The notes under the pieces are model-generated. The model made no database searches. It saw nothing but the letters and a program-made list of their open reading frames with translations, and was not told where the DNA came from. The position numbers were made by a program, and so were the translations under genes. Of a DNA stretch of 64,000 nucleotides, positions 4,023-64,000 are shown one piece after another (within the stretch, counting starts at the first letter, position 1; every line of letters starts with the position of its first letter). Origin of the DNA: a virus; the IMG/VR virus record IMGVR_UViG_3300035565_000042, positions 19,394 to 83,393 of that record; one strand, given 5' to 3'.

Positions 4023-4047
4023 AAAAAGAGGCCTAAGCCTCTTTTTC
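4020..4047. terminator. Bidirectional rho-independent terminator between convergent arms
   Basis: AAAAAAGAGGC, a CTAA loop and GCCTCTTTTT form a perfect hairpin with A and T runs on both sides. It lies exactly where the rightward tail genes meet the end of the leftward early operon, so it can stop transcription from both sides. The stop codon of the minus-strand gene lies inside it. Confidence 0.9.
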
Positions 4048-9434: not shown

Positions 9435-11351
9435 TTAAAATCCTTCAAAGTTAATTTGTTTCTCTGCCTCGTAATTTGTGAACGGATATACCGTATAAGC
9501 ACTACTGAGATTGCTTATATCCTCTCTCTCAAGAAATCTGTTCGATCTCCTGTCAAATTTAAGCAATACCGGATTGGCCCTGTCGGTAGGAAATCCTGCC
9601 AGCTTATGTTCCTTGTTCTTTTGGATATGGATCTCTGCCAGAGTATTCTGCCATGACGTGCGATCATGCTTGTGAATGCACATCATTGAGTAAGTTGTTG
9701 ATGACCATACCTGGCCGCCAATGAGATCAAACTGACTTGGAGCCGGATAGTTCTTATCCTTATCCCTTGGCGGAGTAGGTGGATGATGACATATCAGGTT
9801 GATCAGATCATTCTTTATTGCGATCCTTACTTCAGCTGCCAACTCTTCCTGAAGATACATATCGATGGATTTGTTCCCAAGGTCATGTTTCAGGTTTTTC
9901 CATGGATCAGTAAGGAATCCATTTATGCCATGTTGCCGAATAAGGTTCTTTTTAACGCGTCTAAGCTCACTTGGTGTGTAGCCTTCCTCATTGTCCACAA
10001 AGAAGAAATGCTTGTCTATATGCCTCTGGATTGCGTCCTGGTAGCGTTTTTTACTCATCCTGTCTCCAAAAGAAATGTCTGCAGTATCTCCTACAAGTAT
10101 TTCAGTCAGGGTATCAATGATATTTTCCGGTGGATAGTTCTCAGGACAATACATTCCCCACTTCCAGTCGTATAGAACAGTTGATATCACTATCAGATTG
10201 AAAAGAAGACTTGACTTACCTTCCCCGGGATAACCATTGCCAAGGACTAACCAGCCAGGCATCCAATTGAAATGCGGATCCAGTGATTTGTATCCTGTTG
10301 AATAACCTTTCTGCCTGCCATTGTCAAAGATTCTTTCCATTTTATCCCAGTACTGGGAAGCTGTTGTCACTCCAGATATCGGATACGGATGTGCATATTC
10401 ATTGGAAAGACTGTTTGCCAGGTATTCCTTTCCCTTAGATACAAGAAGATCATTGGCATCTTTGCATGGAGTACCATCTTGTTTCGTATATTCTGAGAAC
10501 TTAATGTACCGGCATCTGTCCTTGCCAAGTCTCCGGGCCAGCTCCTCACGAAGTTTCAATCCGGGAATATCATCATCGGTAGCAAGATAGATTGTTTCTA
10601 TTTCTTTGAAGTATTCAATGCAGATGTCAAGATAATTGAGGTTGAGGTTCTCCCTGAATCTTCCGGTTCTTTTGAACTCTTCAATCTCCTGCGGTGATAT
10701 TGCTGATCCATTTGGTACGCTTATGACATTCGTGATGCCGGCTTCATGATATGCAAGAACGTCCATCTCTCCTTCAACAATGACAACCGATTTCTGTCCT
10801 TTCATTGCATCAAGATTATAAAATATCTTGGTAGCTCCGGATATCAGTTTGAAATTCTTGTCTTCATCCCTGTACTTTATATCAATGAGTATACCGTCTT
10901 TCTTGTACTTGAAGTTGATGCATTTCCTATTTACATAGGTACCTCGGACACTCTCGTTTCCTTCCTTGACCTTATTCTGAAGTATCGGTTCGGTACTCAT
11001 CGAAATATCAAGATTCAGCAATGTCTGTTTTGAGATTTTCCTTTCTTCCCAAAACCATTTAACCAGACTATCACTTACCGGAAGTGTCTTCTTGGCTTCA
11101 AGGATAGGTTTAATCGTCATCCTGTTATAATAATCCTCATCGACAATATAACCACCTTCATTACAATGGTTACAGCGCCAGGGCCGCGGTATCTTGTTCA
11201 CGTTAATAGCAAGCTTCTTTTCTTTCTGGTGAGCCGGTTCCCGGGTTGGAGAACATATAGGGCATACTATATAAACTTCTCCTGTTGCCGGCATCTTGTC
11301 TTTCGGAATAGTGATATCGAATATGCCTTTGCTTGTTATTATCTTTTCCAT
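9435..11351 (-). CDS. Twinkle-like primase-helicase
   Basis: This 638-residue protein combines primase and replicative helicase. An N-terminal zinc ribbon has Cys30, Cys33, Cys60 and Cys63. The TOPRIM primase core has EGEMD (193-197) and ATDDD (257-261). A RecA/DnaB-type helicase domain has Walker A GYPGEGKS (373-380), a Walker B-like GFLTDPW, and a later CHHPPTPP segment. This is the phage T7 gp4/Twinkle layout: RNA primer synthesis plus 5'-3' unwinding. It abuts the upstream 220-residue gene with no gap and is followed 2 bp later by the TOPRIM gene. It is the central replication enzyme visible here. Confidence 0.92.
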   Translation of the reverse strand: MEKIITSKGIFDITIPKDKMPATGEVYIVCPICSPTREPAHQKEKKLAINVNKIPRPWRCNHCNEGGYIVDEDYYNRMTIKPILEAKKTLPVSDSLVKWFWEERKISKQTLLNLDISMSTEPILQNKVKEGNESVRGTYVNRKCINFKYKKDGILIDIKYRDEDKNFKLISGATKIFYNLDAMKGQKSVVIVEGEMDVLAYHEAGITNVISVPNGSAISPQEIEEFKRTGRFRENLNLNYLDICIEYFKEIETIYLATDDDIPGLKLREELARRLGKDRCRYIKFSEYTKQDGTPCKDANDLLVSKGKEYLANSLSNEYAHPYPISGVTTASQYWDKMERIFDNGRQKGYSTGYKSLDPHFNWMPGWLVLGNGYPGEGKSSLLFNLIVISTVLYDWKWGMYCPENYPPENIIDTLTEILVGDTADISFGDRMSKKRYQDAIQRHIDKHFFFVDNEEGYTPSELRRVKKNLIRQHGINGFLTDPWKNLKHDLGNKSIDMYLQEELAAEVRIAIKNDLINLICHHPPTPPRDKDKNYPAPSQFDLIGGQVWSSTTYSMMCIHKHDRTSWQNTLAEIHIQKNKEHKLAGFPTDRANPVLLKFDRRSNRFLEREDISNLSSAYTVYPFTNYEAEKQINFEGF

Positions 11352-12039: not shown

Positions 12040-12465
12040 CTACTTTTTTTTGTCAGAAGGTTTTATTGATAGATCGCCTTCCGTATCTTTCTCCAGCTTG
12101 ACAATCCGCGGTGTGCCGGGTATTGCTGTTGGCGTAATCCATTTGATGAATGACAAAAACCTTGCGTTCCAGCGGATGATCTCTTCCTTGGACTCAGCAT
12201 CACGCATGACAACAAAGACTCTGTATCCATCCGATGAGGCTTCCAGATATGGTACAAGTTGTTTATCGGGGCTTGCTGACGTGACATATGCCTGACCATT
12301 GGCAATCTTGGTAAACGATGCGATTGTATGACCTTTCGTTATATGCATCATCCAATCTGTCTTCTCAACGGGATCACCAATATCCGGCGGATTTGGTCCT
12401 TTGTTCTTCAATTTCTTCTTTTCAGCTTTACGCTGATCCAATGTTTTCTGACTTGTTATACTCAT
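12040..12465 (-). CDS. Unknown protein between helicase and replication genes
   Basis: The product has 141 residues, with a Lys-rich N-terminus (RKAEKKKLKNKG), a β-rich core with YRVFVVMRD and a Lys/Asp-rich C-terminal tail. The start overlaps the SF2 helicase stop by 4 bp (ATGA), so the two are probably translated together. A helicase partner or DNA-binding accessory role is conceivable from context. I do not recognise the family. Confidence 0.6.
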   Translation of the reverse strand: MSITSQKTLDQRKAEKKKLKNKGPNPPDIGDPVEKTDWMMHITKGHTIASFTKIANGQAYVTSASPDKQLVPYLEASSDGYRVFVVMRDAESKEEIIRWNARFLSFIKWITPTAIPGTPRIVKLEKDTEGDLSIKPSDKKK

Positions 12466-13982
12466 GACTTCAATTTGTTAATTATGTTTTCTCTTGTCTT
12501 ATCATCAATAACGAATTTTTCCTTGATGTCAATAGCCTGTTTTACTCTCTGGTACTGACCTACGGTAGCTCCATGAGTAACATCATATCCTTTGACAGCA
12601 AGATAACGTATCTGCCATTCCTGGCATGGTAGGTTGCTTATTAGTTCTGAGGCCTGCATCTTTGTATACTCGGTATCCTCAACCCATATCTGAGCTCTTT
12701 TAAGCCAGTCGATTTGTTTCTCGGTAGCCGGTTCAAGCATTTTCTCACTACTCCATACTTTGACTTGTGGAAGCTTTAGCAGGTCTATCTTCTTATCTTT
12801 GCCATAACTAAGCTGAACATATCTCTCTCTGCGCTTACGTTCTTCTTCCAGAAGTTTCTCTTTATGTTCTTTTGGAAGGAACAACTTATCAGCAATAGGT
12901 ACATCTTTCTCGAGCTCGTAAGCATTGATCAGTGATAACCGGCCGGTATTGTCTACGAAGTCAAGAACAATACATGCATCGGAACTATATTTCTGAACAA
13001 ATGTCTGAGATTTCAACCTTGTCCCCCTGCCAAGACATTGAATATACAAAGTCTCTGATTGTGTGGGCCGGCACATCATAATACATCCGATATCATTGTA
13101 GTCAAATCCTTCGGTTAGGATCTCGCAGTTTGTGAGAACTGTTATCGATCCATCTTTAAATCCTTTGATCAGTTCTGAACGGTTATCACAACGATCCTTG
13201 TCTGAAGATACTGTCTCACATATGATACCATTCTTCCGGAATTCATCACGAAGATGATAAGCATGATTAATGTCCACACAATAGGCTATGCCTTGCCGGC
13301 CGGGTGTGTATTGCTTGTATTTCTGAACGATGAGATTATTTCTCAGTTCACTGTCGACCACTTCGCTTAATTGCTTCTGATTGAAATCTCCGGCCACTCT
13401 CTTGACCTTACTGATGTCTGCCTGAGTCTTTACCTGATATGCCTCTACAGTGGCTAAAAACCCGTCTTTGATGCCATCAGCGATGTTATACTCAAATACA
13501 AGTTTGTCAAACAGATTTGACAATGATAATCCATCAAGACGTTTTGGTGTAGCTGTCCATCCTGTCATCAGCTTTGGAGTCCAATGCCTGGCTGTCTCAA
13601 GAAAAGTTCGGCTGGCATAATGATGACATTCATCTATGACAATGAGCTGGAATGTATCAGGATTAATTTTATCAAGACGATTAAATAGAGTCTGTACTGA
13701 GGCAACAACTATCTTTTTGTCGATCTCAAAAGATTTCTGTTTGACTATGCCTACATTTAAAGGATAGTATTTCTCAATCTCATCATATGCCTGTTGCATG
13801 AGTTCTTCACGATGAACAATGAAAAGACTTCTTGGGAAGTGTTGCATTAGATCTACAGCAGCGAGTCTTTTGCCCGTCCCTGTTGCGGCAACGATTAGTT
13901 GTTTGGTAACGCCCTTATCATAATTCTCCTTGATTGCTTTTTTGCATTCGACCTGGTATGGCCGCCAGTTAATATCTACCAT
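12462..13982 (-). CDS. Superfamily 2 DEAD/DEAH-type helicase
   Basis: This 506-residue ATP-dependent nucleic-acid helicase has Walker A ATGTGK (33-38), motif Ia LFIVHREE, the DECH box (117-120), motif III TATP (143-146) and a C-terminal motif VI with QCLGRGTRL. The spacing fits UvsW/RAD3-like and type III restriction-like SF2 helicases. The residue after the Walker Lys is Arg rather than Thr/Ser, an unusual change at a magnesium-coordinating position. Replication-fork or recombination work is likely. It overlaps the DnaA-like gene by 14 bp. Confidence 0.9.
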
Positions 13983-14385
13983 TGATATGCTCTTTGATCA
14001 TTTCCATTAGTTCTGCATTCTGATGTTCAGGACTCGTTTCTATATGTCGTTCCTTTATCAGTTCTCTTGCTCTTGTAAGCCAGTTAATGACTATGAAGTC
14101 TTTTGTGTCTATCATGTCATTTACAGTCTTGATAGCATGAAGAACTGTAGCATGATCTCTTCCTCCATGCCGGGCCCCGATTGTAGCCAGACTTTGTTTT
14201 GTTAGTTCCTTGCAAAGAGACATCGATATCTGCCTGGCAACGACATATTCCCTTTTCCTTGCTCCCTTTGTCTTGTCGGGCATAAGCATTTCTTCCTTGC
14301 TTATCTCTGCAGCTGAGGCAGCACAGTCGATAATATCGCTTATAGCGAAGTAATCGGTTTGTGGTAAACTATTATTTCCTTCCAT
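13969..14385 (-). CDS. DnaA domain IV-like DNA-binding protein without AAA+ domain
   Basis: The product has 138 residues. Residues about 45-100 match DnaA domain IV: a basic helix ([15 protein letters not shown]), then [15 protein letters not shown] (70-84), which contains the DnaA-box recognition signature GGRDH-x-T-V-L-H. No Walker motifs are present and the protein is far shorter than DnaA (about 450 residues), so it is a stand-alone box-binding domain. Bacterial DnaA domain IV binds TTATCCACA-type boxes. Similar sites cluster at 33.12 kb. It lies directly upstream of the SF2 helicase and behind an ACAACCAACACAAAAACAG leader. Confidence 0.88.
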
Positions 14386-14427: not shown

Positions 14428-15015
14428 TTAAGTAGATAACTTCGGATTTATGAGTAGATCACTCCGGATTGATTCAAGGTATTCTTTTATGAGTACTTTC
14501 TTGAACTTGATTTTTCGTGGTTTGCCGGTGTTATCAGTGAACTGGTATGCTTTAGGAATGAATGTTTCAGCGAATAACTGGACAGGGATTATCTTCTGTA
14601 CATAGATATGATATTTCTGATATACCCACTTCATATTCAACGGGAATGTTATCGCAGACGTATTGTGAGGCCCTATGAAAGTTCCTTTGACATCTATTAC
14701 TGAAAAGTTGGTTTTTCCCTGAGCAACGAAGATGGCATCTTTGACATTGCACTTCTGGTTGAGATTAAGAAATATCTTTCCTATCCATTCCGGGTTCCAG
14801 TGTATCAGGAAGTCAGCCTGGTACTGATGATCATTGATAATTACCGAGTCTTTGGAAACAGTCTTTGTTTTGAGTATCTTGTCGTAGACATGGACTATTC
14901 GATCACTAAGGATGAAAGGCTTTGGATGGTAGTGCCAATCTGTTATCACTCTATTTTCGCGTAACTCTTCCAGATACCACGAGAAGTAGAGTTCTTCTGA
15001 ACTATCATACTGCAT
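14428..15015 (-). CDS. PD-(D/E)XK endonuclease, DUF1064/resolvase-like
   Basis: The product has 195 residues. An acidic pair near the start (SSEELYFSWYLEEL), Asp68 in Y-Q-A-D-F-L-I, and Asp108-Val-Lys110 in SVIDVKGTF match the PD-(D/E)XK nuclease pattern of phage DUF1064-type proteins, which are thought to resolve branched DNA. The family usually runs 110-180 residues, so the size is normal. It would act on recombination or replication intermediates. A TTATCTACT site lies across its stop codon. It starts just downstream of a terminator-like hairpin, hinting at its own promoter. Confidence 0.75.
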   Translation of the reverse strand: MQYDSSEELYFSWYLEELRENRVITDWHYHPKPFILSDRIVHVYDKILKTKTVSKDSVIINDHQYQADFLIHWNPEWIGKIFLNLNQKCNVKDAIFVAQGKTNFSVIDVKGTFIGPHNTSAITFPLNMKWVYQKYHIYVQKIIPVQLFAETFIPKAYQFTDNTGKPRKIKFKKVLIKEYLESIRSDLLINPKLST

Positions 15016-19337: not shown

Positions 19338-19705
19338 TATCTGTTTGGTATTATTTTTCTGAAAATGATTTGATCTGAACAATACTCTTTCTCAAGATTA
19401 TTAAAGTAATACATCGATCCTTTCGGAATAATAAATTCACCAATGACAGATACATCTGAGTATGATCTGTCAGGTTTGTAAGAATAAGAGTGAAATCCTG
19501 CTTCAACTGTTTGTCGATGATCAGGGCTGTAGCCAAGAGAAAGTACTTGTTTATAAACAACATTAGCAATATACAGGAATCGGAATAGTGAAGATACAAA
19601 TTGTGTATCATTGCAATATAACCATCTTCCTGTCGTTTTATAGCAAATGATATCAGCTTTTGCTTTTCTTGGCTTCGACCAATTGTGCAATATTATTAAA
19701 CACAT
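19337..19705 (-). CDS. Unknown phage protein (start uncertain)
   Basis: Up to 122 residues are encoded. The C-terminal half (SVIGEFIIPKGSMYYFN, then EKEYCSDQIIFRKII) has the look of a small β-rich phage domain, with an I-P-K-G-S-x-Y-Y pattern. The only early ATG (19705) would overlap the frameshifted upstream gene by 53 bp, so a non-ATG start further in is possible. No function is assigned. Confidence 0.5.
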   Translation of the reverse strand: MCLIILHNWSKPRKAKADIICYKTTGRWLYCNDTQFVSSLFRFLYIANVVYKQVLSLGYSPDHRQTVEAGFHSYSYKPDRSYSDVSVIGEFIIPKGSMYYFNNLEKEYCSDQIIFRKIIPNR

Positions 19706-26961: not shown

Positions 26962-27933
26962 TTAGTTTATTTTAATTCCTGTGATCTCCTCAAATACATT
27001 AGCATCAAAGTTTGGAAGTGCCTTGAGCAGTTTTATATCTTCTTTAGATGCGTCTTTATAGGCTATTGCCCATGCTTCTTTATAACTGACAGTTTTTAAA
27101 TAACCATCAGTCACAAAAGCATCTTTGTTTGACTTCTTCTCATCATCTGTCATATTGCTCCACGAAACCCATGTATCAATATTGATATTATAAATGAAAT
27201 TAGGCTTTGGTGCATTATCCCAAACTTCTCTTTCGCATTCCTTATTGAATACTAAAATAGTATTAGGGGTAATTGAATTAAAGTTCCCTGAGTTTCCGTC
27301 CCCTGAGTTTCCGTTCCCTGAGTTTCCGTTCCCTGAGTTTCTGTACCCTGAGTTTCCGTACCCTGAGTTTCCGTCCCCTGAGTTTCCGTCCCCTGAGTTT
27401 CCGTCCCCTGAGTTTCTGTACCCTGAGTTTCTGTACCCTGAGTTTCTGTTCCCTGAGTTTCCGTTCCCTGAGTTTCTGTACCCTGAGTTTCTGTCCCCTG
27501 AGTTTCCGTACCCTGAGTTTCCGTCCCCTGAGTTTCCGTCCCCTGAGTTTCCGTCCCCTGAGTTTCTGTACCCTGAGTTTCTGTTCCCTGAGTTTCCGTC
27601 CCCTGAGTTTCTGTACCCTGAGTTTCCTATGCCAGAATTAGCAAGAGTTAACATCTCTTCCCACGTCACTTCCCTCACAATGGTTATCTTCTGAGCGCAT
27701 TGCTTATCGCTGTCAAGACCTAATATAATACCCGACAGTATAACTTCAGCAACTTTGTTTTTGGGGTCAAAAGAATAATATGTAAAGCAATCGGATACCT
27801 TCTGACAGGCATGAAATCCACGCTCACACATAGACGGCTCTTCTTTGATTGAATAAGTCTTTCCGGTTTCATATTGAAATCCCCTGTACTTCCAATCAGG
27901 GTCAAATACTTTGTACGCTTTTACTGTTTTCAT
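26962..27933 (-). CDS. DUF7666-like protein with 23 tandem xNSGx pentapeptides
   Basis: The product has 323 residues. Residues 1-100 (VKAYKVFDPDWKYRGFQYE ... CERGFHACQKVSDCFTYYS) look like the DUF7666 domain of Bacteroidota phages. Residues about 102-216 are a run of G/R-N-S-G-Y/D/N/G pentapeptides encoded by 15-bp DNA repeats. The C-terminal 100 residues (YNINIDTWVSWSNMTDDEK and on) form a separate folded part. Regular NSG pentapeptides may stack as a β-helix. Copy number may vary between isolates. The leader is AAACTAAAAACTAACTATATG. Function unknown. Confidence 0.75.
   Translation of the reverse strand: MKTVKAYKVFDPDWKYRGFQYETGKTYSIKEEPSMCERGFHACQKVSDCFTYYSFDPKNKVAEVILSGIILGLDSDKQCAQKITIVREVTWEEMLTLANSGIGNSGYRNSGDGNSGNRNSGYRNSGDGNSGDGNSGDGNSGYGNSGDRNSGYRNSGNGNSGNRNSGYRNSGYRNSGDGNSGDGNSGDGNSGYGNSGYRNSGNGNSGNGNSGDGNSGNFNSITPNTILVFNKECEREVWDNAPKPNFIYNINIDTWVSWSNMTDDEKKSNKDAFVTDGYLKTVSYKEAWAIAYKDASKEDIKLLKALPNFDANVFEEITGIKIN
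27286..27630. repeat. 15-bp minisatellite, 23 units
   Basis: The unit CCCTGAGTTTC(C/T)GT(A/C/T) repeats 23 times without interruption; variation is limited to about two positions per unit. It codes, on the minus strand, for xNSGx pentapeptides. Such uniformity implies recent expansion or gene conversion, and the array is prone to length change by slippage. Confidence 0.95.
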
Positions 27934-31200: not shown

Positions 31201-31279
31201 TCTTTCTCTTTTTGGTTTATACTCAAAATTTCAAAGATGAAATGACTGTAGATATGATAATTTTCGTGAATTGATTTCC

Positions 31280-31415: not shown

Positions 31416-31988
31416 TTAGCCGTCGATATCTGATGTCTCAACAACTGCAACTGCAGCTTTCTTGAACTGGGATATCCTCAGCTGATCCTTGCCTTCATAG
31501 GGCTCATTGGTGACGTTCACAATGAATTCCTTCTTCTCGGCAATGATTGCATCCAGATCTTCGATACCGGAACCTTCTGCCATTCCCAGTGCAGCAAACA
31601 GCTGGTCCATGATGCCTTCGCATACGGCTGTGTTTGCAGGATCAGGAATTCTGTTCAGTTCCTTGGATTTCGGGTTGACAGCGCAGGCATAGCCTGATAC
31701 GTCTGTGAACTTTCCGCTTTCGATCTCTGCAGCTGAGAGCTTGCTGAATGGTACATAACCTTCCAGGTTGAGCCTGTGGGTTAATCCACCTTTACCTTCA
31801 GTGCTGACAACTGTTATTGCAAGCTGTTCGCAAGGGTTGGTGTAGTCCGGAAGAGTCTCTTTGAGGGTTCCGTCATAGTTGTGAAACGAATCAGTCGGCC
31901 TGAATGATACGAGCCTGACTTTGTTGGCACCGGTAGGCAGTTTTGCGAATACCGGGGTCTTGCTCTTGTAAGAAGCGATTTTTGTCAT
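31416..31988 (-). CDS. 190-residue protein, paralog A (possible ssDNA-binding or abundant early protein)
   Basis: The product has 190 residues and a closely related copy at 34.0 kb. Shared blocks are SYKSKTPVF at the N-terminus, DSFHNYDGT, NPCEQLAITVVS, GGLTHRLNLEGYVPFSKLSA and VNVTNEPYEG(K/R)DQLRIS, ending TSDID. The β-rich middle and acidic end recall OB-fold SSB proteins, but I cannot name the family. The leader (TCTAACCAAAAAGAAAGAAA) and private terminators on both sides imply strong, independent expression. Confidence 0.7.
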   Translation of the reverse strand: MTKIASYKSKTPVFAKLPTGANKVRLVSFRPTDSFHNYDGTLKETLPDYTNPCEQLAITVVSTEGKGGLTHRLNLEGYVPFSKLSAAEIESGKFTDVSGYACAVNPKSKELNRIPDPANTAVCEGIMDQLFAALGMAEGSGIEDLDAIIAEKKEFIVNVTNEPYEGKDQLRISQFKKAAVAVVETSDIDG

Positions 31989-32912: not shown

Positions 32913-33038
32913 TCAGACCCTCGCATGTTTGTTACTGTTCCTTACATACTTCACTACTGTTATAACAAAGTATGCCACTATCAGTACTGCAGAAGTGATC
33001 TCAATCACTCCCCCTGCATTGCAAGCTATTGTTTCCAT
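32913..33038 (-). CDS. Small single-pass membrane protein (41 aa)
   Basis: The 41-codon frame encodes a hydrophobic segment (VIEITSAVLIVAYFVITVV) and a basic end (KYVRNSNKHARV), so it should span the inner membrane once. The leader TCTAACCAAAGAGAAGAAAAAG and a TATCTTTG box some 50 bp upstream fit a Bacteroidota promoter and start. It lies next to the candidate origin. Function unknown. Confidence 0.65.
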   Translation of the reverse strand: METIACNAGGVIEITSAVLIVAYFVITVVKYVRNSNKHARV

Positions 33039-33119: not shown

Positions 33120-33285
33120 CAGTTATCTACTCATAGAGTTATCTACTCCATCCACCTGAGTCATCTACTCGATAAAAAAGGGTTCTCTCTGCACTCTTTC
33201 CTTATATTGTATATAATATATATAATCTTTAAAGAATAATATATATAATATTATAAAAAGAAAAGAAAGATAAAGAATATACCTA
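33120..33285. other. Candidate replication origin: DnaA-box-like cluster plus AT-rich tract
   Basis: Three sites occur within 47 bp: TTATCTACT at 33123 and 33139, and TCATCTACT at 33161. They differ from the bacterial DnaA box TTATCCACA at one to three positions. A strongly AT-rich tract follows at about 33209-33280, like a DNA unwinding element. The phage encodes a DnaA domain IV protein, and the stretch has no genes. The layout of boxes beside an AT-rich unwinding region matches bacterial origins. Assignment is inference. Confidence 0.55.
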
Positions 33286-33527
33286 ACCTTCCTTCAATCT
33301 TTATATCCCCTTTCAGTAATATTCCATCAATATCCAATCAGTATGTCCCTCAATGACTCCCTTATTACCTCATATACTATCCATTGTTATCCTTTACTAT
33401 CAGTAGTCATCCATAGTCACCCATACCAATCAATCCCCAATACCCCCTCTATCGAACTACTGTCATGGCCACGGGCTTGTTAACATTGAATGTTTATAAC
33501 AATGGAATAGTAATATGTGATGAATGA
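33286..33527. other. Gene-free pyrimidine-rich stretch
   Basis: No convincing gene or terminator lies here. The plus strand is notably C/T-rich with repeated short words such as ATCCA, CCAAT and CATCCATAG (for example CAGTAGTCATCCATAG). It may be part of the origin or of an untranslated leader for minus-strand transcripts, but I see no specific site. Confidence 0.5.
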
Positions 33528-34008: not shown

Positions 34009-34581
34009 TTAGCTATCGATGTCTGAAGTCTCGGCTTTCTTGACTGCGACCTTGCCAAACCTCGAGATACGAAGCTGATCACGTCCCTCGAATGGTTCAT
34101 TGGTCACATTGACCGTGAAAGCTTTCTTTTCAGCGATGGCATTGTCGAGTGCCTCGATGCCACTGCCCTCAGGCATTCCGAGTGCTGAAAAGAACTGGTC
34201 GAGAATACCCTCGCAAACCTCGGTGTTCTTGTTATCGATGAGCCTGACCAGCTTGTTGGTTTTGCTGTTGAGCATGCAGGCATAGCCATTGACGTCGATG
34301 TACTCACCGGACTCAATCTGCTTTGCAGACAGTTTTGAGAACGGAACATAACCCTCGAGATTCAGCCTGTGTGTCAGACCGCCGTTGCCGGCAACACTGA
34401 CGACTGTGATAGCGAGTTGTTCGCATGGGTTCTCAAACTCCGGAAGGTTTTCTTTCACCGTGCCGTCGTAGTTGTGAAAGCTGTCTGTGTCCTTGTAGGA
34501 AACAAGACGAACTTCATTCTGACCGAGTGGAAGTTTCATGAAGACCGGAGTCTTCGACTTGTAAGAACTGATTTTTGACAT
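34009..34581 (-). CDS. 190-residue protein, paralog B
   Basis: The product has 190 residues, co-linear with the gene at 31416-31988 and sharing most of its residues, with no gaps needed. Differences cluster in the middle (ADP-type loop versus NSKTNKLVRLIDNKN). Shared N-terminal SYKSKTPVF and C-terminal TSDID are kept. Unlike its neighbours, the start has a clear Shine-Dalgarno-like AGGAGGG 10 bp upstream, in addition to ACTAACCAAAAACACAG. Both flanks have terminators. Duplicate genes around the origin suggest an abundant DNA-related protein, but this is inference. Confidence 0.7.
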   Translation of the reverse strand: MSKISSYKSKTPVFMKLPLGQNEVRLVSYKDTDSFHNYDGTVKENLPEFENPCEQLAITVVSVAGNGGLTHRLNLEGYVPFSKLSAKQIESGEYIDVNGYACMLNSKTNKLVRLIDNKNTEVCEGILDQFFSALGMPEGSGIEALDNAIAEKKAFTVNVTNEPFEGRDQLRISRFGKVAVKKAETSDIDS

Positions 34582-35084: not shown

Positions 35085-35330
35085 GATTATTATTGGTTAA
35101 CAGAGATATAATAACTTTCATCCTGTAAGCATTCTTTTTTGGGGCCCCCTTTTGGCAATCAAACACGCCCCCCTGGTCGGTTTCTGTCATAACCACATCA
35201 AAAATGCCAATATTAGGTCAGGGATGCGTTTTTACACAAAAAAAATAATAGGGATGTTAATAAGTAGTTATCTACTTGTGATTGCGGAGTGGATAACTTG
35301 TAATATATTCGCGAGAAGAAAAGGAAGACA
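35085..35330. promoter_or_regulatory. Divergent control region with facing DnaA-box-like sites
   Basis: The two gene arms diverge here. TTATCTACT lies at 35268-35276, and its near match to the bacterial DnaA box, TTATCCACT, lies on the opposite strand at 35288-35296. A GGGGCCCCC palindrome occurs near 35143. AT-rich tracts flank the sites. Promoters for both arms must be here, but I cannot fix their exact boxes. Confidence 0.55.
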
Positions 35331-36394: not shown

Positions 36395-36688
36395 ATGAGT
36401 GAAGAGAAGGAAATTGCACCAAGTAAACCGATATTATTGGAACTGGACTCTATTCGTAAGGATCTGTACGAACTTTCAGATTGCAGATCATCTTTGGAAC
36501 AGATACTTGATCGTTTGCAATCGAATGATAATTTAAACAATCAGTTAAAAGAGGTACCTGACACTGCTAAAGAGAAGGACTGGGATCAGATGTCTATAAA
36601 CGAGAAAGTAACATCTCTCAGAAAAATTTCATCCATACTCTCTCATAAGTTTGGTGAGCTTCACCAGCGGATAGATAGCGCGATTTGA
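36395..36688 (+). CDS. Coiled-coil protein (97 aa)
   Basis: The product has 97 residues, mostly two long helices (LDSIRKDLYELSDCRSSLEQ, then KVTSLRKISSILSHKFGELH) that should form a coiled-coil hairpin. The start follows CTTAACAATTGTAGTT, a leader also found before other rightward genes. It precedes a structured RNA. Function unknown. Confidence 0.6.
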   Translation: MSEEKEIAPSKPILLELDSIRKDLYELSDCRSSLEQILDRLQSNDNLNNQLKEVPDTAKEKDWDQMSINEKVTSLRKISSILSHKFGELHQRIDSAI

Positions 36689-36762
36689 TCAGTAGCAAGA
36701 AAATTATTATTCTTTCGGGATATATCGAATTTGATAAAGCATACTGTTTTTGGTTAGACAGC

Positions 36763-36847
36763 AGTCAGGGGCCCGGCACTAAGGTAGCGAAGTGAGACAT
36801 TGGTTGACGACAACATATTAAAGTCCGGGCCACTGACATATTTTTTG
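36763..36847 (+). ncRNA. Structured small RNA (three-way-junction type)
   Basis: GTCAG (36764-36768) pairs with CTGAC (36833-36837), and GGCCCGG pairs with CCGGGCC, together a 12-bp closing stem with small bulges. Inside lie hairpins CACT/AGTG and GTTG/CAAC, making a three-way junction, and a T-run follows. The ~48-nt interior is too large for an ordinary terminator. It may be processed from the upstream transcript or made on its own. No known RNA family recognised. Confidence 0.65.
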
Positions 36848-36873
36848 ATTACAAGAAAAAAAGTTTAACTTTG
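36844..36873 (+). promoter_or_regulatory. Bacteroides-type promoter before the 36.9-kb gene
   Basis: TTTG (36844-36847) and TAACTTTG (36866-36873), 18 bp apart, match the Bacteroides -33/-7 elements TTTG and TAnnTTTG (usual spacing 19-21). It directly follows the structured RNA and leads into a 58-codon gene, so it may restart transcription after termination. Confidence 0.6.
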
Positions 36874-36912
36874 ATCCTCGATTGATCGATCGTTAAACTA
36901 AACTTAAGCGTC

Positions 36913-37089
36913 ATGACAAAGAAAAAAGATCCAGGCGAACTAAAGAGGAAACCGAAAGGTTCAGTAGTTCCGGTGCCAAAGAAAGAAACCAGTGCTTCTA
37001 AAACAAAGAAAGTTTCAGTATCAGCACCTAATCCTGATGGTATCCTTACGCCAAAGAACAAGGCTCATGTACATACCTTGAGTGAGTAG
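36913..37089 (+). CDS. Small Lys-rich protein (58 aa)
   Basis: The 58-codon frame (MTKKKDPGELKRKPKG and on) is Lys/Pro/Ser-rich and probably disordered, with net positive charge. Leader GTTAAACTAAACTTAAGCGTC and a promoter upstream, plus a terminator 14 bp downstream, mark it as a separate transcription unit. Nucleic-acid binding or head-internal role is possible. Confidence 0.7.
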   Translation: MTKKKDPGELKRKPKGSVVPVPKKETSASKTKKVSVSAPNPDGILTPKNKAHVHTLSE

Positions 37090-37102
37090 CAATGCGTTGA
37101 AC

Positions 37103-37140
37103 AGCCCGGAAAGAGTATATTCTGCCGGGCTTATTTTTTT
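37103..37140 (+). terminator. Rho-independent terminator after the 58-codon gene
   Basis: AGCCCGG and CCGGGCT form a 7-bp stem with a 15-base loop, followed by TATTTTTTT. It separates the small Lys-rich gene from the terminase operon and is clearly on the plus strand. Confidence 0.85.
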
Positions 37141-47822: not shown

Positions 47823-48670
47823 ATATAGTTCAAATACATGAAAGGATCCGGTTTTGGCTGGATATTGTAGGATCTTCAAGGTTTGAAGCTTCGGACATCG
47901 ATGTTGCTATGAACACTTCTCAGCACGACATGGTTGAGGAAAGGTATGAAGCAAGCAAGAAGATGGGTACCGGAGACTCGTTTCAGAAGACACAAAAACT
48001 TCGTGACGAATTAAAAACCCTGGTAGTCTATAATGACACAGATACGGATCTTGTACTTTCAAGTTCTTCGCATATTCCGGCCGGCGATACAACAAGACAT
48101 GCGCTTATTACTGCAGCATCATTCCCGGAGGACTATAAGTATTTACTTTGTGTAGCCTTCCGTGATGACTCAACTGCAAAAGCCAAGTATAATTGCTGGC
48201 CACTGACATACAACCGTCAGAATCTATTAAATCGCAATCCATTCCGCAGGGTTCGTTATGCTCCATTCTCAAAGCAATATTTTATTGAGAGTAATGAAGG
48301 GATCATGATTTATCATGCGCTTCCAAGTTCACTTGATATTAGCAGGATTGAGATCTTCTATTTGAAGGAACCTATCTTCTGGCATTATGGGATCGAAAAA
48401 ACCCTTGCTGATACCCTTGTGGTTGCGTCTGTGGTCATTGTAGTATCAGAGACTGCAGTTTATAATGGAACGACTTATCTTCGCGGAGATGAGATTACAA
48501 TCGTTGCAGGGCATACCAATATCACTTCTGGTACCGTTCTTGACAATTATACTACAAGTGATATCACTTCAGTACTTCATGAAGATATTGCCAGGAACTC
48601 TGCAATCGATCTTTTGATCTCTATAAGAGATTTTGATAAGGTAAAGATGTTAAAAGAAATGTTTGATTGA
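47819..48670 (+). CDS. Head-tail connector-like protein
   Basis: The product has 283 residues. The N-terminal 50 residues are helical (IVQIHERIRFWLDIVGSSRF) and the rest β-rich with ASFPEDYKYLLCVAF and RRVRYAPFSKQYFI, a pattern also visible in the gene at 58.9 kb, where a P-D-S-C-Y-K-V strand is in the same position. Proteins like this form connector rings or gatekeepers in podoviruses. Assigned by pattern and position. Confidence 0.55.
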   Translation: MNIVQIHERIRFWLDIVGSSRFEASDIDVAMNTSQHDMVEERYEASKKMGTGDSFQKTQKLRDELKTLVVYNDTDTDLVLSSSSHIPAGDTTRHALITAASFPEDYKYLLCVAFRDDSTAKAKYNCWPLTYNRQNLLNRNPFRRVRYAPFSKQYFIESNEGIMIYHALPSSLDISRIEIFYLKEPIFWHYGIEKTLADTLVVASVVIVVSETAVYNGTTYLRGDEITIVAGHTNITSGTVLDNYTTSDITSVLHEDIARNSAIDLLISIRDFDKVKMLKEMFD

Positions 48671-48743
48671 TCGTTAGTGTAGGTGCTTGCACCGAATATC
48701 GATACAAAAAAAGTGTTTAGTATTAACCAAAAAAAGAAAGAAA

Positions 48744-50282: not shown

Positions 50283-52045
50283 TGAAAATGCTTCGGACAA
50301 ATATTAACCGTCCAAGGATCAATAAACTTCCAGGATCAACTTCTTCATTGAATTGGAACTCGTACTGGAATACAATTATTCCGATGCCACTACTTGCATA
50401 CAGTACAAGTGAGACAACGATGGCTCTTTCTGTTACCGATATGTTTTCTGGCAAAGGTAAACTTGCTTGGTACAGAAGCGCGGACGGCTCGACTTACGCC
50501 AAGATTGCAACAACAGGAACTGGTGTTTTGAGCTATAACGATACCGGACTGACGGCAGGGACTCTTTATTATTACAAATGTAGAGCAGAACAGGGCAGTC
50601 ATTATTCTGCATGGTCGAATGTTGCTTCTACTCCGACATGGTGTTCTAATTACACGACTCTCTATGCGGCAATTACCGGAACTAAACCATCGGCAATGGT
50701 TGCTTCCGCTCAATCAAAATTTCTTTGGAGATTATTAGGTAACAATAGTCTTTCTTTAAATGTGTTGCAGAAAATTGTTTATTTGTTACCTACAGAAGCC
50801 GGTATGCCTTCTTCGGCTGATGCTTTGATAAGATGGGATAATCCTTCAAAGAAAGCTACATTAAGTGCAGTAGCTCCAACATATACTGTAAATCGAGGTT
50901 TCAAGGGAAATGGGGTTTCAGCATATATATTAACCGGATTCAATAGTTCTATTGACGGTGCAGGTATTTATCTACAGGATTCATGTTCCTCTGTTCATCA
51001 CTTCACCTATGGATCAACAATTTCTACGGATACAGGAGGAAGTGGCTGGCAATCTTCAGCATCTGGCAATCCAGGTATGGCTATTTATCCTATCTATACC
51101 AATAATGTATATATCAGATGCCAGGGGTCTTACGTAAATTGGGCAAATACTCACATTGATCAGTTATTCTCTTGTGTAAGAAATAATGCAACACAATGTC
51201 AGATTTATTTTGCAAAAGAAGCACAGGGACTTAAATCCGCAAATTCCATTGCATTACAGAATCTTGAAGCGTATGCATTGTCAATAAATATTGCTGGTAC
51301 TGCTGGTTCTTTTATGACTGATTATTGTGGACTTATTTGTTATGCATCTGGTTTTACAGCTAATGATGTAACAGTATTTGCTGATGCTTATGATGAAATG
51401 CTACTTGCAATTAATTATGGAACAATATTACTTGAAGAACTTGGCGATGGCGTAAGTATTGATGTAGCAAAATGGACTGTTACAAATACTAATCCATTAT
51501 CAGTTGAATTTGAAATTGATAAAGGTTTGGTAATGCACAACATGCTTCCTGGTGGTGCAGATCCTATATATGATAATATACGAAGTGTTTTAAAATTTAA
51601 TTGGGGTATCTATAAGTTTGATTGGATGGACATGATGCGTGTAACTATTGGTTATTCTTACCATCAAGTTACCTGGTATTACCTCTATAACTATTACATG
51701 AAATTGCAGATACTTTGGAATGCAGGAACTTCAGTTTGGGAATTACATTTTATGATATATTATCCAGGTTTAGTACTTGATATAGTATTGGGTAGCGGTA
51801 CTGTTGGTACACCTTTCGATTTTGCATCATTAAAAATAGTGGATACACCTCTTCACTATTTAAAAGCCTATGTATGGAATTTTGTTACTGAATTATGGGA
51901 AGAAAAGGGTAGCGCATTTTATCATCCTCATAAACCTTACGATATTGGAATGGCATCGAGGGGTTCAGAACTTGCATTAGGTACAAAAACAGTAATGGAT
52001 GATATATATGTTACAGCGTTTGATTTTGATACTTTAAATCCGTAA
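50282..52045 (+). CDS. Fibre protein with Fn3-like domain
   Basis: The product has 587 residues. Residues about 36-110 (LAYSTSETTMALSV ... AWYRSADGSTYAKI ... GLTAGTLYYYKCRAEQGSHY) resemble a fibronectin type III domain. The centre is a β-rich, Gly/Ser region with LamG-like character, and the C-terminal 190 residues (IDVAKWTVTNTNPLSVEFEI and on) resemble a jelly-roll/concanavalin-like fold. It likely binds the cell surface. It is 5 bp before the tailspike gene. Confidence 0.6.
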   Translation: MKMLRTNINRPRINKLPGSTSSLNWNSYWNTIIPMPLLAYSTSETTMALSVTDMFSGKGKLAWYRSADGSTYAKIATTGTGVLSYNDTGLTAGTLYYYKCRAEQGSHYSAWSNVASTPTWCSNYTTLYAAITGTKPSAMVASAQSKFLWRLLGNNSLSLNVLQKIVYLLPTEAGMPSSADALIRWDNPSKKATLSAVAPTYTVNRGFKGNGVSAYILTGFNSSIDGAGIYLQDSCSSVHHFTYGSTISTDTGGSGWQSSASGNPGMAIYPIYTNNVYIRCQGSYVNWANTHIDQLFSCVRNNATQCQIYFAKEAQGLKSANSIALQNLEAYALSINIAGTAGSFMTDYCGLICYASGFTANDVTVFADAYDEMLLAINYGTILLEELGDGVSIDVAKWTVTNTNPLSVEFEIDKGLVMHNMLPGGADPIYDNIRSVLKFNWGIYKFDWMDMMRVTIGYSYHQVTWYYLYNYYMKLQILWNAGTSVWELHFMIYYPGLVLDIVLGSGTVGTPFDFASLKIVDTPLHYLKAYVWNFVTELWEEKGSAFYHPHKPYDIGMASRGSELALGTKTVMDDIYVTAFDFDTLNP

Positions 52046-53230: not shown

Positions 53231-54142
53231 ATGAAATTATTCAAAACATATCGAACCTTTGAAGAGATCCTGCCGGAACACCTGACAGAGAGAAAGATTG
53301 CGCTTACTCACCGATCCTTTGCCGGAGAGGTAAGCAAGTTCAGAAGGTTTGATTCCTGGCTTAATTCTCATGATCTGCACGATAAATCACTCCGGAAGAT
53401 ATCAAACCGTGATATCGCAAGATTTTTTGTGGAGATTGCCGGCGAACTCGATAAGCCCACTTGCCAGAAATATTTCATATCAATCCGGGGACTATGGCAG
53501 TTTGCGTTTAAGGTAGGAGAGATAGGCAAGACTCTTCCCTTTGACTTGGTTGTTTTTCCTACAAAAAAAGATGACTATTCACCAGCCCTAATACCACGGG
53601 AAGACTTCTGCGAGCTTATGGAAGATATAAAGAAGAACGACAGACAGCTTTACCTGGCTTCAATGATTGTTTACTATGCCTTTATCAGGCCAGGAAGAGA
53701 GCTGAGGCTACTCAAAACCGACGATTTCAATTTTGAACTTGGTTATATAAGGGTAATTGCCCAGAATGCCAAAACCAGGAAACAGAGATTTGTAACAATT
53801 CCTCCAGAGCTCATGGAGGTTTGTATTGCTTATGGGATAGATGACGCGGATCCCGGTCTGTTTGTGTTCGGATCCAAGGGAAAGATAAGCAAAAGGCATA
53901 TCGGAATTAATAGCCTGGCGGCGAGGTTTAACGTATTCAGAACCAAACATGGTCTCTCAAGAAAGGTAAAATTTTACTCTTTTAAGCATACTGGAATGAC
54001 GGACATGCTGAATGCCGGTGTTCCACTTTTGGCAGTCCAGGGACAGGCAGGGCATGATCGGTTAACATCGACACAACATTACGCAAAAAAGTATGCCGGG
54101 ATCATTAATCCAAGCATCAAAACCTATTTAAGAACAGCATAA
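53231..54142 (+). CDS. int: Tyrosine recombinase / integrase
   Basis: The product has 303 residues. The N-terminal core-binding region (1-105) has SRFDSWL-type helices. Catalytic pattern: Arg153 in FIRPGRELRLL, Lys in KTRK (181-184), Y-S-F-K-H-T-G (249-255) in place of the usual H-x-L-R-H-T, Gly274-His275, and nucleophile Tyr284 in STQHY. The Arg-to-Lys exchange at 252 is conservative and not rare in Bacteroidota integrases. It could integrate the phage or switch tail genes. Unusually, it lies inside the late rightward operon, 25 bp after the small tailspike partner. Confidence 0.9.
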   Translation: MKLFKTYRTFEEILPEHLTERKIALTHRSFAGEVSKFRRFDSWLNSHDLHDKSLRKISNRDIARFFVEIAGELDKPTCQKYFISIRGLWQFAFKVGEIGKTLPFDLVVFPTKKDDYSPALIPREDFCELMEDIKKNDRQLYLASMIVYYAFIRPGRELRLLKTDDFNFELGYIRVIAQNAKTRKQRFVTIPPELMEVCIAYGIDDADPGLFVFGSKGKISKRHIGINSLAARFNVFRTKHGLSRKVKFYSFKHTGMTDMLNAGVPLLAVQGQAGHDRLTSTQHYAKKYAGIINPSIKTYLRTA

Positions 54143-58565: not shown

Positions 58566-58925
58566 ATGGTGGGTCTTATGCGTAATAGTACGATTAGTCC
58601 TGTTAAAATCAGTTACCGTACAATAAACTTTATATTGTCACGGTTCTTTCATTATTCAATCCAGGCACTCATTAATGGTTATCCAATCGTAGTCTGCAGA
58701 TACTTCAGATTCAAACTTGTTTACGCATTATATTCATTCCTACCTCATCAGGTTCGCGAACATATGAAATACTCTCAGAAAGCATTTGGTTATGCATTCT
58801 ACGTAGTCTGTCAGTCACGACATGCTGATAAGTTTGGCTATACCTTTCGCACGTCAAGAAAACTTCTCGATACTATTCATGAACATACCGAAACGGATGT
58901 TGTCTATAAACTAATGAAGAAATGA
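58566..58925 (+). CDS. Small basic protein in connector block (119 aa)
   Basis: The product has up to 119 residues (ATG at 58566 or 58578), rich in Arg, Lys, Tyr and Phe with helices such as ISYRTINFILSRFFHYSIQA. It could bind DNA or membranes, or act as an assembly factor. The stop overlaps the next gene by 4 bp. Family not recognised. Confidence 0.5.
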   Translation: MVGLMRNSTISPVKISYRTINFILSRFFHYSIQALINGYPIVVCRYFRFKLVYALYSFLPHQVREHMKYSQKAFGYAFYVVCQSRHADKFGYTFRTSRKLLDTIHEHTETDVVYKLMKK

Positions 58926-59608
58926 AGAAATACTCAATAAGACAGGCAGTACTCAATGCAATAGACGAGACTGATGATAGTATCGGCCGGCATATGAATA
59001 CTCTTCTTAAGTGGGCTAAATACTGTGAGACTTGTATAGGAACCCTGAATGGTTATCCTGTCCGCGCTGAGCTCTTTACTGTTCATGCAGCGAAGATAAC
59101 ACTTCCGGACAGTTGCTATAAAGTCTTATGTCTTATCCCGGGAGACTACACCAGCGAAGTAAATCTTCGTTTCAAAGATCTCAATAACATTGTCATCAAT
59201 GTTGATAACAGGGATGGTGAGTTTGCATCAACACCGTCACTTGAATTTGTCTGGAGTGATACATCCTGGCCGCGGGTTCCATCAATGCTCTGGGAAGAAG
59301 TAGGAAATGAACTTTCTATAGTCGATCAGTATAATGATGAAACAGTAACACTTGTTTATCAGTATATACAGGTTGATTCACGTGGATACTGGCTCGTAAA
59401 TGAAAGTCATCTTGAAGCAATAAAGAAATACCTGATATACCAGGTCGCAAGGAAGTTTCTCAACAACAGTTTCAAAAGCAGTAAACTAACTCGCGCGATA
59501 GATTTTCAGGTTGTTCAGGAATACAAAAAAGATTACAGTATTGCCATACGCAATGCCAGGGCCCTTGATAACGAAGAGAATCCGGTCGACTCGCTTAACA
59601 AGAAGTAG
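58922..59608 (+). CDS. Head-tail connector-like protein 2
   Basis: The product has 228 residues. It starts MKKYSIRQAVLNAIDETDDS, has a β-rich centre (LPDSCYKVLCLIPGDYTSEV) and a C-terminal helix (EAIKKYLIYQVARKF), matching the style of connector proteins at this place in podovirus genomes. The protein at 47.8 kb has a similar order of elements. The stop AAGAAGTAG lies in the first copy of the AAGTAGATAACT repeat. Confidence 0.6.
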   Translation: MKKYSIRQAVLNAIDETDDSIGRHMNTLLKWAKYCETCIGTLNGYPVRAELFTVHAAKITLPDSCYKVLCLIPGDYTSEVNLRFKDLNNIVINVDNRDGEFASTPSLEFVWSDTSWPRVPSMLWEEVGNELSIVDQYNDETVTLVYQYIQVDSRGYWLVNESHLEAIKKYLIYQVARKFLNNSFKSSKLTRAIDFQVVQEYKKDYSIAIRNARALDNEENPVDSLNKK

Positions 59609-59636
59609 ATAACTCAGCATACGCAAGTAGATAACT
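59603..59636. repeat. Direct repeat of AAGTAGATAACT before the 1297-aa gene
   Basis: AAGTAGATAACT occurs at 59603-59614 and 59625-59636, 22 bp apart, directly in front of the start at 59638. It is the complement of the DnaA-box-like TTATCTACT at the candidate origin. It may be a binding site or control point for the tail gene, though chance or another role is possible. Confidence 0.5.
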
Positions 59637-59637
59637 T

Positions 59638-62600
59638 ATGGAAATCATTACCAAGATAAAAGACGGGATACATCAGGACAATAACGTGTATGATCAGCCG
59701 GAGAATACTATGCGTGACAATCTCAATGGTGTGATCACTGATATTGGTAATGGGAACTATAAGTGGAGCAACATAAAGGGAAATCTTCTTTCATTCGTTA
59801 CAACTCTTGCAGATAAATATTTCACTCATTGTCTTATCCGGGACAGGTTGATAATCCTTACTCTTGACGTAACCAGTCAGATAGTGAAATTATGGGAAGT
59901 AACTTTTTCAGGAACAATCGGAACTGCCGTAATAATCTGGACCGGATCGAATACTGAGTTAAATCTTTCATTCAGTTATCCAGTACGTGCTATATGGGGA
60001 TTCTATGAGAATGAACAGATTCAGCGGTTTTACATGGTCGATAACAACAACCCTCCACGATGCTTTAATATTGGAGCAGTTGGAGCAACTGTTGTCATTG
60101 ATGAAAAGTTTACCAGGTTTACTCCCGTTATCGATCACGTATATGGGAAATTCAATCTTATTGGACAAACCAGTAATGGTTCAGTAAAGGCAGGATCATT
60201 ATTCTTTGCATGGAGATATTACACTGATGATGGTTATTATACAGACTGGTCTGATCTTTCAAATCCAGTTATTGTCACCGATGGTGTTCCTGGGCCGAAT
60301 TATGACGATTACCAGAAATGTGAAGGAGAACGTTCAGACCTTGATTCAGGGAAGAGCATACAATATCAGATCTCAGATATCGATATTGACTATGATAATA
60401 TTCAAGTATGTGCATTCTATTCAAATGACAAGGATATTGCAATGCCAGGGGTTATCATTTATGATGGCGCTATTGATCCTTCTGGTATAATGCCTCTTAC
60501 ATATTTTGGTAATGAAATATTCGGAACAGTAACTATTGATGATCTGATTGAGGTCACTACTACCATAGAGAAATGTAAGGATATGTTCTATGCCAAGAAG
60601 AAGAATGTCATTGCATGTATTACTGAAAGGCAGGAACTTGATCTTGATGCATATATGCCAGCTGATATCTCTACTGAAGATTACCGGATCGTAATGGACA
60701 GAACTGGTTATAATGGTAAGATGTTAAGTTCTGCTGACAGTAAGGCATTAGTCGGTATGCATTCTGCCTCATTCCTGGCATCAAATCCGGGGTCTACGAC
60801 ACTATTAAGAGGTCAATGGTATAAAGCCATCACTCAGGTTGTTTATACCGGAGATGCAACGCCACACACTATTCCGGCTGGGAATATCTTTTATATCCTT
60901 CCTACACTTACAACCATAACCTATACTTCAGGTACCTACAAACCTTGTATTGTTATCAAGAAATATCTGAAGGCCGGGCATACATCAAATGAAGATGTCA
61001 ATGTAGCATTTGCTTTTGATGTCATTACACTTGAAGATGAATTCCTTGATTACAAATCTCCAAAAGTATCTCACTATCTGAGGGGTTATCCTCATGGAGA
61101 AACAGTTCGTCTTGGAGTTCTTTTCTTTGATAAGACCGGTAGGCCATTCTTTATAAGACATCTCCGCAAGTCAAGTGACACATATGGAGTTGGTGACATA
61201 ACATTGAAAGTTCGTAGTGTTACCAATCTTCTTGTTGAAGAAATAGGAGCGCATACAAGTGGAATAAGTGGAGGCGGAACTGATCCGTGGTATGATCAAA
61301 TCAATGGACTTGTAAAGAGTCTTATTATTGACAATCTTGACCTGACTGATATTGTCGATCAGATCGGAGGATTTGCAATAGTTCGTACACCAATCATTCA
61401 TCAGTATCTTGCCATGGGAATACTCCACTGGACATATCTTTCAGGAAACGATGTGTATAGTGTTCCAGTATTCTCTGGGGTAACAGCTGAAACTGATAAC
61501 TATAATGGTTGTTATGATTTCTATTGCCCTGATGATATATTCAATGCAAAAGGGTTTGCACTTATTGAGAATGATGAGATTGAGAATCTTTACTATCTGA
61601 AACCATATTGCATTGATGAAAAATACACGATAGGATCTGGTGGTTCAAATAACTGGAATGGAGTCGGCCGGCAGGAATCGGCAAACAATGATTTCTACCA
61701 TAAATTCTTTGGTTATAGTGACTCTTCCAATACTACAAATGGAGCTCCGGGAGTTTCGCATAAGCTTAAAGCAATTACAAAGTATGTAATCGGTAGTGAT
61801 GCCATGCCAATAAATCCTATTGATGGTACTAAACTTTACCAGGCATATTGCAAGACTTATTATGACGGATACAACAATCATAAAGGAATTAATGGAGATC
61901 ATTCTGTACTGATGCTTGATATCGATGAAGTAGCTGATGGAATAAAAGGGAGAGCTGGTCAACCGCAAACACAACCAGTTTCACTTCTTTGTGCGGTCAA
62001 ACATCCTAATTCTGATCCATATGGTGGCTACAGTGACTCATCTATTGCCAATTCGCTTTATTTAACAATTGGACATTATCAGGAAATAAATGATGCGGTT
62101 CTGAATGATATTAAGACAACTCCAGGTGGTGTAACAAAATACATCTTCAATCATATTCAGGTATTTGGTGGCGACACTTATCTTGGCTTGTTTGACTTCA
62201 AAAGGATCTTCATCAATGAGAATGATAGTGGAGTTGAGCCATATGGTCAGACATGTATATTTCCAGTTGAGTCAAGAATGAATCTTGCAATGCGTGAAGG
62301 AGTTCATATAGCAAAGGACCGGTCATATGATGCTACTTATAATACCTCTGGAATAAGAATGTTGAATTCAGCGCCTAAGTTTGAAGAGTTCAACTACAAT
62401 GATGGTTATTCTACAAGTGATATTCAGGATTATTACGTCCCGGTTCCTTTCAATTATAAACCAACATCTTCGTATGATTGCCGAATCCGGTATTCTCTTG
62501 AAAAGAATTATGGAGAGACAAGAGATAACTTTCGGATATTCCGTGCTGTCGATTATATTGATTTGAATCCAAATCGTGGAGCAATAACAAATATCCGACA

Positions 62601-63531: not shown

Positions 63532-63532
63532 G

Positions 63533-64000
63533 ATGACAGACTCGGTAAAGAAACTCAGATGTAACGGTGGTAAGATGAAATCCGGAGGCAAGAAGAAATT
63601 TGCTGATGGTACTGCCGTACAAAAAGAAATGGCAACTAAGAATGGTCTGTCTACCAATAAAGGATATGCCATTGATGCTGCAATAAATGAAGTTGGTGAC
63701 TTAGGATCAGACATTCTTAAGTCAGGTATCAATACTGACATTGATTCACGTGACAATCCGGAGAGTCAACTAAAAAAGAATTCATCATTATCTACATCTG
63801 CCAATATGCTTAAAGGAACTGCCAAGGGAGCCGGTATAGGAATGATGGTTGCTGGGCCGGTTGGAGCTGCAATTGGTGGTGCTGCCGAACTGGCTGTAGA
63901 GGGAGTCAAAGCATTACTTAATCATGGCGCAAATAAAAGAGCCCGTGCTGAAGCTGTAGGTAAATGGATGAACACATGGAATTCAACTGATGAGTCTGCA
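63533..64000 (+). CDS. Glycine-rich ejection-type protein (3' partial)
   Basis: The frame starts at 63533, one base after the previous stop, and runs off the window (156 codons seen). The N-terminus is Lys/Gly-rich (KLRCNGGKMKSGGKKKFADG), followed by a glycine-zipper hydrophobic stretch (GAGIGMMVAGPVGAAIGGAA) that could enter a membrane. Podovirus internal ejection proteins often have such features. The rest lies outside. Confidence 0.6.
   Translation, partial: MTDSVKKLRCNGGKMKSGGKKKFADGTAVQKEMATKNGLSTNKGYAIDAAINEVGDLGSDILKSGINTDIDSRDNPESQLKKNSSLSTSANMLKGTAKGAGIGMMVAGPVGAAIGGAAELAVEGVKALLNHGANKRARAEAVGKWMNTWNSTDESA

Follow-up and report, generated by a model that had tools for sequence, protein, structure and literature searches.

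The longest intergenic region of an 83,393-base phage genome (32910–34008, 1099 bp) holds three short boxes of related sequence and, on their 3′ side, a strongly AT-rich tract. The genome is that of IMG/VR virus record IMGVR_UViG_3300035565_000042; the window analysed here is a stretch of 64,000 nucleotides covering positions 19394–83393 of the record, and all coordinates below are those of the window. Genes lie in two arms: those between 35.1 and 4.0 kb are read leftward, and those from 35.3 kb on are read rightward. Both ends of the record share an exact 123-bp direct repeat, so that in all likelihood it represents a complete genome with a circular map.

Judged by its sequence, this is a complete but distant crAss-like phage. 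The best annotated relatives of its terminase are crAss-like phages (21–26% identity), PHROG matches include the terminase, portal and head proteins (structural families), and the crAss-like terminase, portal and major head protein that mark membership of the Crassvirales are all present. No near relative was found in the annotated phage set searched. IMG/VR, however, contains two complete or nearly complete relatives whose head proteins are 75% identical to that of the phage studied here: IMGVR_UViG_3300018080_000142 (93.7 kb; hereafter q) and IMGVR_UViG_3300025018_000006 (80.5 kb, with a 127-bp end repeat; hereafter r). An integrase gene located among the late genes (53231–54142) is without counterpart in either relative.

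An orphan DnaA domain IV protein

The candidate reader of the boxes is a 138 amino acid protein encoded on the minus strand at 13969–14385. The earlier note had described the genome as carrying a DnaA domain IV-like protein, and this is borne out by a match to Pfam family PF08299 (E 3.6e-19), including the domain IV helix-turn-helix with its box signature. PF08299 is the only domain found in the protein: the AAA+ domain III, with its ATP- and ssDNA-binding functions, is absent. The AF2 model of the protein has a pLDDT of 87, and its best solved matches in Foldseek, 3pvp and 1j1v, are the DNA-binding domains of M. tuberculosis and E. coli DnaA on box DNA. In the alignment with 1j1v, the E. coli DnaA residues R399, R407, Q408, K415, D433, H434 and T436 are kept, whilst P423 and T435 are both replaced by alanine. 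Some of these aligned residues are base contacts, and the two replacements would be compatible with an altered box sequence. Alanine at the T435 position is common to other aligned viral proteins, many of which were retrieved with a pattern requiring it.

The gene encoding the 138 amino acid protein is overlapped by that for an SF2 helicase (12462–13982, minus strand), and this pairing is conserved in four phage contigs, with synteny kept in q, in r and in a further contig, L071. The same leftward block includes a TOPRIM primase/helicase (9435–11351, minus strand). In the relatives, the DnaA-like proteins (q 36543–37130; r 63241–63894) have at their C-terminus a zinc-finger-like extension with four cysteines, which is absent from the 138 amino acid protein.

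Nine boxes in four clusters

Three sites within 47 bp had been reported in the earlier note, and these are indeed present at 33123 and 33139 (TTATCTACT) and, with one mismatch, at 33161 (TCATCTACT), as are the facing sites reported in the divergent region, 35268 on the plus strand and 35288 (TTATCCACT) on the minus strand. The proposed count of TTATCYACW also held up: the window has 11 occurrences, whereas dinucleotide shuffles average 3.2 ± 1.8 and not one out of 100 came up to 11. Comparison of the sites shows that the conserved word is longer than this 9-mer core: it is the 11-mer AGTNATCYACT, found exactly nine times in the whole 83.4-kb genome, with every copy in one of four clusters at 14.43, 33.12, 35.27 and 59.60 kb. 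The clusters at 14431/14453, directly ahead of the DnaA-like gene, and at 59604/59626 were missing from the earlier list.

The cluster at 33.12 kb is the sole one with three boxes, all on the plus strand: box 1 (33121–33131) and box 2 (33137–33147) are exact copies of AGTTATCTACT at an offset of 16 bp, and box 3 (AGTCATCTACT, 33159–33169) follows box 2 by exactly 22 bp. In the divergent region ahead of the first rightward gene, AGTTATCTACT at 35266–35276 (plus strand) is faced by AGTTATCCACT at 35288–35298 (minus strand), again at an offset of 22 bp. The pair near the DnaA-like gene lies on the minus strand and comprises AGTTATCTACT at 14431–14441, 46 bp ahead of the gene start, and AGTGATCTACT at 14453–14463, 22 bp from its partner. 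Finally, two minus-strand copies of AGTTATCTACT spaced by 22 bp are found at 59604–59614, overlying the end of ORF 58922–59608, and at 59626–59636, a single nucleotide ahead of the ATG of ORF 59638–63531. All four clusters thus sit at gene starts or boundaries, and each includes one pair with the exact 22-bp offset; no other offset is seen more than once.

Could short AT-rich words within an AT-rich region simply have produced this arrangement by chance? The loose 9-mer with one mismatch shows just a slight excess (30 against 22), which speaks for chance. In 200 simulated order-3 Markov genomes, however, AGTNATCYACT occurred 0.27 times on average and twice at most, compared with the nine copies observed, and a pair within 30 bp never arose. 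All nine boxes score at least 16.9 bits with a weight matrix, the next places scoring 14.2 and 11.4 before background is reached. Because this same genome supplied the motif, a blind count of 11-mers matters. Once a 15-bp tandem array at 27.3–27.6 kb had been masked, AGTTATCTACT proved to be the most over-represented 11-mer of the genome, with 6 copies against 0.083 expected (Poisson p 4e-10; next 11-mer 1.3e-6). The Markov count, the equal 22-bp offsets in four clusters and the blind count show that the box excess is not due to chance, an explanation that we consider scarcely credible. The masked array is the genome's strongest word repeat and consists of 23 CCCTGAGTTTCCGTC-like units at 27286–27626, within ORF 26962–27933 (minus strand).

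The 33.1-kb region and its counterparts in two relatives

The strongly AT-rich tract that had been noted beside the sites runs from 33203 to 33282 and is a candidate unwinding element. No other 80-mer of the genome has as few G+C (8 in 80 positions; the next lowest has 12). Nearest-neighbour energy likewise places the least stable DNA of the genome here, clearly ahead of any other stretch at both 60 bp (53.0 against 58.7 kcal/mol) and 100 bp (98.1 against 107.6 kcal/mol). The tract starts about 35 bp 3′ of box 3 on the box strand, so that the boxes point toward it. In the oriC regions of E. coli and B. subtilis, the unwinding element lies on the same side of the boxes. The description of the stretch as gene-free is also correct insofar as boxes and tract contain no ORF of at least 60 amino acids; a possible leftward ORF of 41 amino acids (32913–33038) lies beside them. 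An Rfam search of the candidate origin region returned weak, chance-level matches only.

How closely does this layout resemble that of a bacterial origin, as the earlier note had claimed? The excess and clustering of sites, the AT-rich tract, the polarity of the boxes toward it and the presence of a domain IV gene all support the comparison. Against it, the boxes (AGTTATCTACT) do not fit the bacterial DnaA box consensus TTWTNCACA, and no run of three trio-like triplets is present in the 131 bp after box 3 (DnaA-trio as defined in PMC8287927). Because both the AAA+ domain and the DnaA-trio are missing, the 33.1-kb locus is not a true oriC. Two sequence features expected of a lambda-type or iteron origin are found here, namely helically phased repeats (the 22-bp offset recurs in all four clusters, although the extra box at 33121 stands 16 bp from its neighbour) and an AT-rich region beside them. 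The locus can plausibly be described as a phage origin whose iterons resemble DnaA boxes.

GC skew, which had been proposed as a means of mapping the origin, gave no support for this position. The skew minimum is at 35,208 rather than 33.2 kb and the maximum at 4,031, exactly the points of gene divergence and convergence, and four-fold silent sites are C-rich on the coding strand in both arms. Because its turning points match those of gene direction, and silent-site skew has the same sign in both arms, GC skew carries no independent origin signal and was rejected as evidence.

On a local scale, the most GC-skewed 150-bp stretch of the genome is found at 33298–33447 (8 G, 49 C), and the homologous region holds the most skewed stretch of q and one of the top three in r. 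Extremely G-poor tracts on one strand (33298–33470 here, 51241–51440 in q and about 48016–48165 in r) thus occupy a homologous place in the three genomes, with no conservation of sequence. An R-loop origin arising from such a tract has the extreme skew in all three genomes in its favour, is otherwise unsupported and was set aside.

In q and r, too, the longest intergenic region occupies the homologous place: it adjoins the homologue of gene 34009–34581 on that gene's 3′ side. In the phage studied here, this gene and a paralogue (31416–31988), both leftward, flank the candidate origin region; the relatives have a single homologue of the two. A second short repeat family, TATCATTTGACAGGG-like, has copies at 31277, 33770, 33789, 33813 and 35716, three of them in the long intergenic region to the right of the AT-rich tract.

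Conservation of the 11-mer box itself was rejected. AGTNATCYACT was not found in q by a search for pairs or clusters of its 9-mer core, and r contains one single variant, a poor match; neither genome has a comparably over-represented 11-mer. The only intergenic matches to TTATCNAC in the two relatives are copies of TTATCAACA, at 51084 and 52979 in q and at 48502, 62526 and 62574 in r. These sites occur in the homologous intergenic region of both genomes, in the same orientation relative to the genes, and also in an intergenic stretch of q nearer the rightward arm and ahead of the DnaA operon in r, the kinds of place that hold clusters in the phage studied here. TTATCAACA is modestly enriched in intergenic DNA (post hoc p values of 0.046 and 0.022), and we treat the sites as a lead to possible counterparts of the boxes. 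It is the place of the candidate origin region, not the box sequence, that is conserved in the two relatives.

Possible roles and readers of the boxes

The reading that we favour, at about even odds of being right as a whole, is that the boxes form a phage-specific set read by the orphan protein, with the three-box array at 33.1 kb acting as an origin and the other pairs controlling transcription. Taken part by part, the 33.1-kb locus is probably the replication origin, the other three clusters probably control transcription, including that of the protein's own gene, and a cut-down DnaA is probably what the phage uses to start its own replication and, in part, to control it. The orphan domain IV protein would bind the AGTNATCYACT family of sites. 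At 33.1 kb, where three boxes adjoin the least stable DNA and two of the boxes are spaced by two helical turns, protein bound in phase may strain the neighbouring tract and cause it to open, and the opened tract would then receive the phage primase/helicase. Since the motor domain is missing, loading would have to come from elsewhere: the primase/helicase might load directly, the partner SF2 helicase might mediate, or host DnaA might provide the AAA+ step that the phage protein lacks. Through the remaining pairs the orphan protein may also control transcription: the pair at 14.43 kb would act on its own gene, that at 35.27 kb on the rightward arm and that at 59.60 kb on a late structural gene. 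A more general form of this proposal, to which we give somewhat less than even credence, is that DnaA domain IV alone, without the AAA+ motor, can serve as origin-recognition protein and master transcription regulator with a re-specified box, the box changing between relatives whilst its place is kept.

The main and serious rival is a purely transcriptional role, in which the orphan protein regulates itself, a leftward mini-ORF, the rightward arm and a late structural gene through operators, and the origin lies elsewhere or is undefined. The position of all four clusters at gene starts or boundaries, one of them directly ahead of the protein's own gene, fits this well, as does a 138 amino acid protein without an AAA+ domain. 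In addition, AT-rich sequence resembling a promoter lies next to three of the four clusters and leads into an AACCAA leader at 14.43 and 33.1 kb and into TATATTCG at 35.3 kb, which further qualifies the claim of an oriC-type origin. The promoter-like sequence was, however, recognised by eye, and none is visible at the 59.6-kb pair. Sigma-70 and terminator scans gave results near shuffle level. Operators alone would also leave unexplained why the sole three-box cluster lies beside the least stable DNA, in the longest intergenic region. We regard this rival as less likely than not. The idea that orphan DnaA proteins generally regulate themselves was rejected: orphan domain IV proteins are present in most of 44 viral loci, and no comparable box pairs were found ahead of the gene in these loci, an observation that weighs against the reading favoured here. 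A leader motif, (G)TCTAACCAAAAA, occurs shortly ahead of several start codons (31997, 33049, 34606 and 48700–48743) and may mark the start of transcription or serve as a leader element in translation.

The origin reading has parallels in several known systems. As in bacterial oriC and its basal unwinding system (BUS), tandem DnaA-box-type sites all point toward an adjacent AT-rich tract, and the phage encodes DnaA domain IV, but the box is AGTTATCTACT rather than TTATCCACA, the trio is absent and the protein lacks domains I–III. Lambda ori with its O protein, and plasmid iteron origins such as those of P1 and RK2, combine a replicon-specific DNA-binding protein with phased repeats and an AT-rich neighbour (PMC5043065). 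The phage locus shares the helically phased repeats and AT-rich region with these, and self-regulation is common among them, but its module is DnaA domain IV instead of a lambda O or RepA-type domain, its boxes also occur at three distant places, and it is a candidate origin only. Like DnaA in its role as a transcription factor, the phage protein has boxes ahead of its own gene and other promoters; unlike DnaA, it is an orphan domain without a nucleotide switch. Reuse of domain IV outside DnaA, as an orphan Bac_DnaA_C domain, is also seen in viral contigs and in TnpA-REP transposases; the repeats that flank the transposases are unlike DnaA boxes (PMC6006769), whereas the phage shows candidate target sites. 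A search of the open-access literature for crAss-like phages with a DnaA-domain origin returned no paper. With a stand-alone DnaA DNA-binding domain, nine clear candidate target sites and a neighbouring candidate unwinding tract, the locus is a compact and testable candidate that could reveal which share of the work of DnaA falls within reach of the box-reading domain when the AAA+ motor is absent. Dozens of viral contigs bear the same orphan domain.

It is also conceivable, if quite improbable, that the boxes are read by another protein, either host DnaA or an unrelated phage repressor. Host DnaA might have the specificity to do so. However, canonical TTATCCACA is present only twice, both times within coding DNA, pairs of the exact box are absent from every Bacteroidota genome searched, and one cluster lies directly ahead of the DnaA-like gene. 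Seven scattered prokaryote contigs contain pairs of AGTTATCTACT, but Bacteroidota are not represented among these, and two AT-rich phage contigs have such pairs as part of a short tandem repeat; degenerate 22-bp tandem pairs have no other occurrence in IMG/VR. An unrelated phage lineage (G001), in which pairs likewise occur, carries AGTTATCTACT about 40 times, with many intergenic copies that recall stoperator-like dispersed operators. These differ from the boxes described here in being mostly single and dispersed over 30 kb, and neither a DnaA domain nor proteins similar to those of the phage studied here were detected in the lineage, so that another protein family may read the word. In the unrelated phage lineage of IMGVR_UViG_3300042446_002107 (L021), IMGVR_UViG_3300043570_003543 (L026–L028) and their kin, AGTTATCTACTCT sites, about 40 in number, are dispersed over 30 kb of small genes and are stoperator- or promoter-like. 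A Chloroflexi contig, CAADGT010000233.1 (L117), has AGTTATCTACT in three tandem pairs that together span 126 bp.
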